Shown in pieces: positions 7,796 through 11,464 of a stretch of DNA of 64,000 bases (position 1 is the stretch's first letter; each line of letters opens with the position of its first letter). The stretch spans positions 1 through 64,000 of the forward strand of contig NZ_JABVWW010000004.1 in assembly GCF_013350005.1 (NCBI RefSeq), given 5' to 3'. The notes under the pieces are model-generated. The model ran no database searches, had not been told where the DNA came from, and worked only from the letters and a program-made list of their open reading frames with translations. A program made the position numbers and the translations under genes. Source of the DNA: Methylocystis silviterrae. Its GTDB lineage: Bacteria; Pseudomonadota; Alphaproteobacteria; Rhizobiales; Beijerinckiaceae.

Positions 7796-7885
7796 CCTAG
7801 CGCCCGCGCTTGTGAGCAAATTACCATTCCTGTTCGATGACAAATATCCTCCCCGAGCCCCATGATTATTGATTTCGGGGTTCTC

Positions 7886-7941
7886 CCTTCTCCCGCTTGC
7901 GGGAGAAGGTGGCCCGGCGAAGCCGGGTCGGATGAGGGCGG
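7886..7941. repeat. Left inverted palindromic repeat flanking the DUF559 gene
   Basis: It begins with a perfect hairpin, CCTTCTCCCGC-TT-GCGGGAGAAGG (7886-7909), followed by TGG, a second small hairpin (CCCGG-CGAAG-CCGGG) and TCGGATGAGGGCGG. Its reverse complement matches 8291-8349 except in the inner hairpin. It resembles the REP-like palindromes scattered through Hyphomicrobiales genomes. It ends 3 bases before the DUF559 start codon. Confidence 0.88.
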
Positions 7942-7944
7942 ATT

Positions 7945-8314
7945 ATGCGTGATGATACGCCAATAGAACGGTTCCGACAGGCCCGCGCGCTTCGCCGCGT
8001 CATGACAACCTCCGAAGAATTGCTTTGGCGGCATCTTCGCGGACGCGGCCTCGGTGGAGAAAAATTTCGCCGACAGGTTCCGATCGGACCTTTCATTGCG
8101 GACTTCGCTTGTCTCGAAAGGCGTTTGATCGTCGAACTCGACGGCCGACCGCACGAAGCGCCCGAAAGGCAAGCGCGACCGCCATCGCGACGAATTTCTC
8201 GCGGCCCATGGGTGGCGCGTGCTGAGATTGACGAACGAACGCGTCATCTGCGGCGCGGCGTTGCTGGATATCATGGCGGCGCTGCGGCCACCGCCCTCAT
8301 CCGACCCTCGCTAA
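7945..8314 (+). pseudogene. DUF559 (Vsr/endonuclease-fold) gene with one frameshift
   Basis: The start at 7945 reads a normal DUF559 N-terminus: MRDDTPIERFRQARALRR, TTSEELLWRHLRGR, FRRQVPIGPFIADFAC and the core VELDG with a following H. After about 8170 this frame loses homology, while the +1 frame from 8174 continues with RDRHRDEFLAAHGWRVLRLTNERV and ends at TAA 8312-8314. Joined, the two parts give about 123 residues, the family's usual size. So a single one-base insertion (or two-base deletion) near 8165-8173 broke the gene, unless it is a sequencing error. DUF559 proteins share the fold of very-short-patch and restriction-like nucleases; their role is not established. The restored 3' end lies inside the right flanking repeat. 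Confidence 0.85.
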
Positions 8315-8349
8315 CGCGAGGGCCACCTTCTCCCGCAAGCGGGAGAAGG
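8291..8349. repeat. Right inverted palindromic repeat flanking the DUF559 gene
   Basis: The reverse complement of this 59-base segment matches 7886-7941 over both outer parts. It differs in the central hairpin, CCCTCG-CTAA-CGAGGG type here instead of CCCGG-type. It contains the restored stop codon of the DUF559 gene and ends in the same GCGGGAGAAGG hairpin. Confidence 0.88.
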
Positions 8350-8372
8350 GATGGCGCGGCGAGATTTCGGCC

Positions 8373-8490
8373 TTAGACCGTGACGGACCGCAACTTCAAC
8401 GAAGCGACGCGATGCAGCATCTCCGGCGGAAACATATTGGTGGTCGTTCCGACCTCCGCCGCTCGTTCAATTTCATGATGCCGCTGGCGG
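8373..8490 (-). pseudogene. Possible 3' remnant of an unidentified gene
   Basis: On the minus strand an open stretch of about 36 codons ends at TAA (8375-8373). It reads RHHEIERAAEVGTTTNMF then PPEMLHRVASLKL and has no start codon with a ribosome binding site. It looks like a protein C-terminus, but I do not recognise the family. It sits between the DUF559 repeat and the ABC-F fragment, in a region full of gene debris. Confidence 0.3.
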
Positions 8491-8507: not shown

Positions 8508-8620
8508 CGCAATCCGCAGGAGGGGCGGGCCTTGCGTCGCAGCGTGAGGAATTGGCGCGTGCGCTGGCCGCCGCCGAGGAACAGTGGCTGGAATTCGCCG
8601 CTGAGGCGGAAGCGCTGTGA
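8508..8620 (+). pseudogene. Duplicated 3' fragment of the ABC-F ATPase gene
   Basis: From 8508 (CGCAATCCGCAGGA) to the TGA at 8618-8620 the sequence follows the 3' end of the ABC-F gene at 9599-11464, in the opposite orientation. The translated part reads LASQREELARALAAAEEQW then LEFAAEAEAL; the intact gene ends LASQREELAQALAAAEEQW then LELAAEVQA. The early part of the fragment has small indels and no start or ATPase domain. It is a decayed partial copy, not a gene. Confidence 0.85.
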
Positions 8621-9598: not shown

Positions 9599-11464
9599 CT
9601 AAGCTTGAACCTCGGCGGCGAGTTCCAGCCACTGTTCCTCAGCGGCGGCGAGCGCCTGCGCCAATTCCTCGCGCTGTGATGCCAGCCGCGCCGCTTCCTG
9701 CGGATTGCGCGCGAAGGCGTCGGGCGCGGCGAGCGCCTCGTCGACGCGGGCGATCAGCTGCGTGAATTTCTCGACGCGTTCCTCGGCGGCGGCGAGCTTG
9801 CGCCGCGCCTGCCCGGCGTCGCGACGCCTTGGCGCCTGCTGCTTTGCCGCCTCTTGCTTCGCCGCCTCCTGAGCCGGCGCGCGCCTTGGCTCATCGTCGC
9901 GCGATTTCGAGAGCACCTGCCGCGCATAGTCGTCCATGTCGCCGTCAAACGCGCGCACGGTTCCGTCGTCGACCAGCCACAGGCGATCGGCGCAGGCCTC
10001 GAGCAGATAGCGGTCATGCGAGACCAGAACGACGGCGCCCTCGTAATCGTTGATCGCCTCAATCAGCGCGGCGCGGCTGTCGATGTCGAGATGGTTCGTC
10101 GGCTCGTCGAGGATGAGGAGATGCGGCGCGTTGAAGGTGGCGACGCCGAGCAGCAGCCGCGCCTTTTCGCCTCCCGAAAGCTTGGCGATGAGGGTTTCGG
10201 CGCGCGCGCCGGAAAATCCGGTCTGCGCCGCGCGACCGCGAATACGCGCCTCGGGGGCGCCCGGCATCAGCCGCGCGAAGACGGCGTAAGGCGTCTCGTC
10301 CTCATTCAGATCGTCGACCTGATGCTGCGCGAAAAATCCCGCCTCGAGCTTTGGCGCGCGCACCATCTCGCCGGCGCAGGCCGAAAGCCGCCCGCCGAGC
10401 AATTTGGCGAAGGTCGACTTGCCATTGCCATTGGCGCCGAGCAGGCCGATGCGATCGTCGTTGGAAATCGACAGCGTAAGCCGCGACAGCACGATTCGAT
10501 CGCCATAGCCGACCGCCGCTTTCTCCAGCGCGATGATCGGCGGCGACAGCGGCTTCTCGGGCGAGGGCAGATGAATCGGCAGGACCGAATCGTCGACGAT
10601 CGCCGCGATGGGCTGCATTTTGGCGAGGAGTTTCAGGCGCGACTGCGCCTGGCGCGCCTTCGTCGCCTTGGAGCGGAAGCGGTCGACGAAGGCCTGCAGA
10701 TGCTTGCGCTGCTCTTCCTGCTTCTTGGCGCCCTTGACGGCGAGGAGCTGCGCCTCGCGCCGCTGTTTTTCGAAGGAGGAGTAGTCGCCCTTATAGAGCG
10801 TCAGCTTTCCCCGCTCGAGATGCAGAATATGAGTGGCGACGTCGTCGAGCAGATCGCGGTCGTGGCTGATGACGATCACGCTCGCCGGATAGCGCGACAG
10901 GTAATCGACCAGCCACAGCGTGCCTTCGAGATCGAGATAATTGGTCGGCTCGTCGAGGAGCAGCAGGTCGGGCTGCGCGAACAGCACCGCCGCCAGGGCG
11001 ACGCGCATGCGCCAGCCGCCGGAGAATTCCGACAGCGGCCGGCGCTGCGCCGCGGCGTCGAAGCCCAGCCCGTGCAGGATGGCGGCGGCGCGGGCGGGCG
11101 CCGAATGGGCGTCGATGTCGGCGAGCCGCGTCTGAATGTCGGCGATGTCGTGCGGATCATGCGCGGCCTCGGCCCGCGCCAGCAGGTCGGCGCGCTCAAG
11201 GTCCGCCGCCAGCACGAAGTCGATCAGCGCCGTCGGACCGCCCGGCGCCTCCTGCTCGACGCGCCCGAGCCTTGTGCGGGCGGGGATCGAGATCGCGCCG
11301 CTTTCGGGGGCGATTTCGCCGCTGATCAGCCGGAACAGCGTGGTCTTGCCGGTGCCGTTACGGCCGACAAAGCCCGCGCGGGAGCGTCCCGGGAGGAACA
11401 CCCCGGCGTGGTCGAACAGCAGCCGGCCGCCAAGCCGGTAGACGAGATCGTTGATCGTGAGCAT
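9599..11464 (-). CDS. ABC-F family ATPase (ribosome-associated, no membrane domain)
   Basis: 621 aa with two ABC cassettes in tandem. First Walker A GRNGTGKTT (about residue 34), signature SGGWRMRVALA, Walker B LLLLDEPTNYLD; second Walker A GANGNGKST (about 345), signature SGGEKARLLLG, Walker B LLILDEPTNHLD. The interdomain linker is rich in Lys, Arg and Gln (QEEQRKHLQAFVDRFRSKATKARQAQSR), as in translational ABC-F proteins that enter the ribosomal E site. The C-terminus is a charged coiled coil. It is close to the YheS/Uup branch, but I cannot assign the subfamily. A decayed copy of its 3' end lies at 8508-8620. Confidence 0.92.
   Translation of the reverse strand: MLTINDLVYRLGGRLLFDHAGVFLPGRSRAGFVGRNGTGKTTLFRLISGEIAPESGAISIPARTRLGRVEQEAPGGPTALIDFVLAADLERADLLARAEAAHDPHDIADIQTRLADIDAHSAPARAAAILHGLGFDAAAQRRPLSEFSGGWRMRVALAAVLFAQPDLLLLDEPTNYLDLEGTLWLVDYLSRYPASVIVISHDRDLLDDVATHILHLERGKLTLYKGDYSSFEKQRREAQLLAVKGAKKQEEQRKHLQAFVDRFRSKATKARQAQSRLKLLAKMQPIAAIVDDSVLPIHLPSPEKPLSPPIIALEKAAVGYGDRIVLSRLTLSISNDDRIGLLGANGNGKSTFAKLLGGRLSACAGEMVRAPKLEAGFFAQHQVDDLNEDETPYAVFARLMPGAPEARIRGRAAQTGFSGARAETLIAKLSGGEKARLLLGVATFNAPHLLILDEPTNHLDIDSRAALIEAINDYEGAVVLVSHDRYLLEACADRLWLVDDGTVRAFDGDMDDYARQVLSKSRDDEPRRAPAQEAAKQEAAKQQAPRRRDAGQARRKLAAAEERVEKFTQLIARVDEALAAPDAFARNPQEAARLASQREELAQALAAAEEQWLELAAEVQA

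Follow-up and report, generated by a model that had tools for sequence, protein, structure and literature searches.

Small nuclease-like genes of the DUF559 family (PF04480) usually lie between inverted copies of palindromic triplex repeats, and in the samples analysed here this association is firm. The preliminary description had proposed from one locus that DUF559 proteins act on, or spread with, such palindromes; that they accompany them is borne out by the bracketing of the genes, by the match of repeat type to gene clade and by co-occurrence across genomes. Cutting and mobilisation of the repeats by the enzyme are what we infer, and the preferred reading, to which a probability of about 0.6 is given, regards DUF559 as a homing-like nuclease recognising the repeats and driving their spread. 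As the enzyme behind the spread of triplex repeats, DUF559 is a promising first candidate.

The window locus and its repeats

The window, i.e. the whole stretch of 64,000 nucleotides analysed, carries one such locus, with these features:

7886-7909, + strand: left repeat, outer hairpin (pyrimidine arm, 2-nt gap, purine arm)
7910-7929, + strand: left repeat, linker with second hairpin
7930-7938, + strand: left repeat, third strand GGATGAGGG, toward the gene; mirrors the purine arm GGGAGAAGG under G-G, A-A/T
7945-8314, + strand: DUF559 (PF04480) gene, frameshift at about 8150-8172
8294-8302, - strand: right repeat, third strand, toward the gene
8303-8325, - strand: right repeat, linker with second hairpin; includes TAA 8312-8314
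8326-8349, - strand: right repeat, outer hairpin

As first described, the two repeats are reverse complements except in the central hairpin: the arms 7884-7915 and 8320-8351 (32 nt) and the inner arms 7925-7941 and 8291-8307 (17 nt) show 100% complementarity, and the middle hairpin is the sole divergence between the copies. The left repeat ends at 7941, 3 bases upstream of the ATG at 7945, and the stop codon, TAA 8312-8314, lies within the right repeat and closes the frame with the C-terminal part (54 aa). The assignment of the gene to DUF559 also holds, in two frames: the PF04480 profile matches 7975-8172 (78 bits) and 8168-8254 (22.4 bits) in different frames, and the gene is therefore frameshifted; this copy is probably dying. 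The 24-nt hairpin has two matches in the window against none in 100 shuffles, and its 22-nt core occurs at 19 places (≤3 mismatches) in the 3.85-Mb genome, four of them being outer hairpins of two DUF559 genes.

Two rearrangements were observed nearby. Positions 8508-8614 and 9610-9710 match in inverted orientation (86% over 100 nt), a partial copy of the end of an ABC-F-like gene (9599-11464). The downstream flank (8442-8490) is flipped relative to the upstream flank when compared with its match in a related genome, G180 (L191, 1402-1450), i.e. there is an inversion near the right repeat.

The repeats had been called REP-like, an identity that was not sustained, as they are triplex motifs (TM/PIT) and not RAYT-type REPs. 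RAYT-driven REPs are ruled out by the absence of a Y1 transposase from the window genome (G000), the Y1_Tnp profile being matched in 6 of 31 genomes of the genus. The E. coli triplex motif is written CCCTCNCCC-loop-GGGNGAGGG-NNN-GGGNGAGGG, with 23 copies in K-12, about 100 in Neisseria gonorrhoeae and 443 in Microcystis aeruginosa, and its triplex formation in solution has been demonstrated; the available text of that survey reports neither an association with mobile elements nor a shared function of flanking genes (PMC4666352). The enterobacterial RU-3 is a different repeat. No tie between DUF559 or ycjD and these repeats was found in titles and abstracts among the matches listed from the open-licence literature.

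Distribution of bracketed DUF559 genes

Bracketing was scored by aligning the 320-bp upstream flank to the reverse complement of the downstream flank. The window genome has seven PF04480 matches in six genes, all six lying between inverted repeats of five sequence types (scores 18 to 46). PF04480 was matched in 22 of the 31 genus genomes, with up to seven matches per genome, and the 70 match rows gave 65 genes once the parts of three split genes had been joined and two rows removed (one within a 1,869-aa frame, one a fragment beside another match). The former, G030:C20:76119-76388, is a DUF559-like domain in an open frame of other protein architecture. The comparison set beforehand as the refutation test, i.e. 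flanking palindromes at DUF559 genes against other genes, gave scores ≥18 for 60/65 genus genes, 0/171 random ORFs and 0/133 neighbouring ORFs; at ≥14 the counts were 63/65, 3/171 and 1/133, and the two genes below 14 are short fragments. A score of 25 was reached by 78% of own flank pairs but by only 11% of randomly paired flanks from different DUF559 genes.

In the class, DUF559 was matched in 54 of 144 genomes, and a sample consisting of the best match of each of 29 genomes gave 14/29 loci at ≥18 and 20/29 at ≥14. A wider sample came from a profile scan of named genomes, mostly Proteobacteria, from which the best 80 of 572 confirmed loci were taken and 79 were testable; 55/79 scored ≥18 and 64/79 ≥14. 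The repeats are thus not confined to Alphaproteobacteria, as had been supposed, and also stand beside DUF559 genes of other groups. Outside Proteobacteria inverted pairs are weaker: among the 12 loci of these best 80 named as other phyla or Desulfobacterota, seven reached 14 and four reached 18 (two Chloroflexi, one Syntrophales, one Methylomirabilota). Four of seven plasmid-collection records scored ≥18 (Deinococcus, Azospirillum, Sinorhizobium and Pseudanabaena), the others being Picosynechococcus (13) and E. coli KE47 and Lelliottia (both 9); in KE47 and Lelliottia the TM-like motifs stand only downstream. The Deinococcus plasmid pDEIPR03 (L222) has a different geometry, the tail of its left copy pointing outward, with an outer inverted repeat AGGGCCAGCGTTGCTG.

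The triplex grammar itself follows the genes. A TM lies within 250 bp of 154 of 173 DUF559 genes (genus 54/65, class 26/29, wide 74/79 from the best 80 of 572 loci) and on both sides of 116/173, against 0/346 shuffled flanks. Among control ORFs at least one TM was found at 8/174 and both at 0/174, and neighbouring ORFs had TMs on both sides in 1/34 (class) and 1/64 (wide) cases. Shuffles and control ORFs together exclude chance or composition as the cause of the bracketing. The tails point toward the gene in 256/346 flanks and away from it in 87/346, where one flank may count in both. When hairpins were picked regardless of their tail and the fit of the tail to the purine arm was compared in mirror and direct orientation, the mirror fit was better for 156, worse for 12 and equal for 58 of 226 asymmetric arms (37 better and 3 worse among 58 distinct arms). 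The tail thus mirrors the purine arm, the orientation that a reverse-Hoogsteen third strand needs.

Repeat subtype, when compared with DUF559 clade as had been suggested, follows it. Over the 125 loci scoring ≥18, protein and repeat similarity of non-syntenic pairs were correlated in the genus (r=0.517, 1398 pairs), within genomes (r=0.522, 71 pairs) and in the class and wide samples together (r=0.23, 2318 pairs), each with 0/300 permutations as high. A TM pattern search in the 144 class genomes, set against DUF559 at E≤1e-13, found the pattern in 40 genomes and the gene in 38: both in 32, TM only in 8, DUF559 only in 6 (no TM by the pattern used) and neither in 98. DUF559 thus occurs in 32/40 TM-positive and 6/104 TM-negative genomes (odds ratio 65, Fisher p 1.3e-18, uncorrected for phylogeny), and the reversed pattern, used as a control, gave 15 matches in 4/144 genomes. 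The complete genome G042 has all three of its DUF559 matches inside TM pairs, and the five other inward TM pairs listed there are far shorter and hold no DUF559.

The E. coli member of the family, ycjD, was matched in 3365 of 5426 genomes, and in K-12 the ninth TM in the published list (1,351,204-1,351,239) lies between fabI and ycjD (PMC4666352); this is the only side of ycjD with a clear TM. Among the records listed (60 of 5416), the median number of further repeat places was 29 (19-37) with ycjD (n=37) and 7 (2-33) without it (n=23; p 1.7e-9), where places were counted at E≤1 and are not all proven TMs, the counts in 1388 records are to be read as "at least", and the lineages are related. 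The sediment strain NZ_LR778147 is an exception among the records listed, with 33 repeat places and no ycjD. In two records without ycjD that were read, sapF is followed by efflux genes, and an eef operon is described at that place, after sapF (PMC12817139). Three E. coli sites were rejected as proofs of insertion: the short allele at alx-sstT resembles a deletion between direct repeats, the 186-bp difference at fepB-entC is not polarised in direction, and at ygfF-gcvP the neighbour gene differs in the comparison strain. Strain EC261 was rejected as an alx-sstT comparison, having other sequence at the site.

Gene-less alleles and units bounded by terminal repeats

At two loci, some orthologous sites that lack the gene carry a repeat or a bare hairpin, the order of change being unpolarised. 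At the window site, 12 relatives comprise G180 with one intact repeat and no gene, three genomes with a single altered repeat (G011, G023, G026), one with a hairpin-like remnant (G021), six with none and one with a contig end. At the site of another gene of the window genome (L004), compared in 30 of the 39 genomes with a locus, the repeat-gene-repeat form occurs in three, a bare hairpin resembling the one in the right repeat in four, two repeats about 100 bp apart in one and a repeat with half a hairpin in one, and none of these forms was found in the other 21 within the stretch compared. The palindromic outer hairpin means that the two inverted repeats contain a direct repeat as well, and a deletion between them would leave one bare hairpin.

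Another alphaproteobacterium, G158, has discrete gene-less units at several places in its genome, for one of which an empty counterpart site and a target-site duplication were found. In G158, a TM pair is enclosed, in units of about 300 bp, by common outer terminal inverted repeats (TIRs) GGTCTGTCGACATTCA. A DUF559 remnant lies between the two TIRs of L274, L273 has about 40 nt resembling one end of a DUF559 gene, and the other units have no recognised gene; L275, with a full DUF559 gene, has the left TIR only. The gene-less unit L271 is absent from the sister genome G182, where the flanks are joined at one CTAG that is doubled in G158 (a 4-bp duplication), and this is the only clean empty site; L273 is also absent from G182, with about 70 bp of other sequence instead. 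Other unit ends in G158 are CTAA/CTAA, CTTG/CTAG, CCAG/CTAG and GTAG/CTTA. Such outer TIRs are not general to DUF559 loci, being found at 1/63, 1/20 and 1/64 loci. As further observations, shorter TIR-bounded units, about 80 bp long and carrying one hairpin or what is left of it, occur in G158 and G182 (L313-L317), and the duplicated target at the unit ends L270-L274 resembles CTAG. Vsr acts at CTWGG, and a link to the CTAG-like target may or may not exist.

These units bear on a rather unlikely alternative, in which DUF559 is a passenger that settled inside MITE-like repeat pairs moved by an unrelated DDE-type transposase. The outer TIRs and the 4-bp CTAG duplication in G158 would suit such an enzyme, duplications of this kind being known for some DDE insertion sequences, and the case for DUF559 as the driver is weakened in that the clean empty site comes from a gene-less unit only, in a TIR-bearing genome unlike the other loci. 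Against a passenger stand the one gene family found between many repeat types, with clade following type, and the DUF559 remnant inside both TIRs of L274; moreover, no TIR pair (≤2 mismatches, among the matches listed) lies 0.8-3 kb apart in G158, the spacing an insertion sequence needs, and a convergent pair about 0.8 kb apart is seen on contig C61 at 3 mismatches.

The enzyme, its possible role and known systems

All 28 sequences compared share the DUF559 residues D44, E55, D57 and H61, and the corresponding D, E, D and H are invariant in 45. YcjD was earlier assigned to the PD-(D/E)XK superfamily (PMC1189080), and a DUF559-containing gene is placed in the EDxHD family (PMC9403480). With a predicted structure (mean pLDDT 89.2), the search returned 3hrl, a Neisseria protein also matched by the DUF559 profile, then the catalytic domain of the homing endonuclease I-Bth0305I (3r3p_B; TM 0.72, E 8.1e-4), then Vsr. 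The resemblance to Vsr claimed in the preliminary description is thus present (TM 0.63, E 0.088) and weaker than that to I-Bth0305I, whose sequence relation to DUF559 is itself weak (profile E 9.6e-5). A phage gene was rejected as a candidate identity, with 3 of 50,697 phage records matched by one query, as was a defence gene, the PADLOC matches being weak (best E 3.3e-4).

The Vsr-like fold also recalls a host repair enzyme that tackles damage or mismatches at unstable repeats, and lies near them for that reason without moving them. The Caulobacter DUF559 protein VsrA is linked to mismatch repair, and its presence leads to an SOS response once a methyltransferase is lost (PMC12907096); genome instability is described around triplex motifs (PMC4666352). 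This role appears quite improbable: a trans-acting enzyme need not sit between inverted copies of its own substrate, and up to seven matches per genus genome, together with frameshifted copies, suggest turnover. That the repeats are terminators or insulators attracted by any small foreign gene can practically be dismissed, for, although the single-stranded outer hairpins are stable, 0/76 control ORFs of 90-250 aa scored ≥18, a terminator has no need of a third strand, and an earlier test, as stated in the available text of PMC4666352, gave neither promoter nor terminator activity.

Under the homing-like reading, the locus would be a minimal selfish unit in which two inverted TMs enclose a single small gene for a restriction-fold nuclease. 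This nuclease, possibly dimeric, would recognise the repeat and cut there or at a short target; host break repair might then copy the two repeats into a new site, either together with the gene or without it, and gene-less pairs would be non-autonomous derivatives. A bolder version is offered tentatively, at slightly worse than even odds: that DUF559 is the sole mobility enzyme of unrecognised minimal mobile elements and itself recognises and moves triplex repeats, the TM/PIT of E. coli, Neisseria and cyanobacteria being their non-autonomous offspring. Triplex repeats occur in many bacteria, including E. coli K-12, for which the text available from the survey gives no link to a gene class or mobile element (PMC4666352), and pairing them with DUF559 (YcjD) opens both to experiment in a laboratory strain. 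Should this nuclease move the repeats, a restriction-type enzyme would fill the role that the RAYT transposase has for REPs.

Several known systems share parts of this arrangement. In REPtrons and REPINs, too, inverted palindromic repeats enclose a gene, paired derivatives lacking the gene measure about 80-130 bp, and the repeat type matches the gene clade; their enzyme is an HUH tyrosine transposase (Y1), of which the window genome has none, whereas DUF559 is PD-(D/E)XK/Vsr-like, and their repeats have a GTAG head in place of the triplex grammar. The published TM/PIT share the hairpin and third-strand grammar, the triplex of the window repeats being predicted from sequence, and a K-12 TM adjoins ycjD; to repeats without a mobile-element link or common flanking function in the available survey text (PMC4666352), the present analysis adds DUF559 as a partner and describes variants in which the linker forms a second hairpin, as it often does in DUF559-flanking repeats. 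Vsr has a related fold, and DUF559 genes differ from it by their repeat bracketing. The EDxHD homing endonucleases, represented by I-Bth0305I, have in common with DUF559 the fold of the catalytic domain and a weak sequence relation, and a further likeness is that DUF559 genes stand at repeats that are gene-less in other genomes. The target on which I-Bth0305I dimerises is nearly 60 bp long (PMC3943268), close to the length of the DUF559 repeats. These endonucleases target one allele of one gene, whereas DUF559 targets would be dispersed repeats, and DUF559 differs further in having no intron or intein and a protein with little beyond the catalytic domain.
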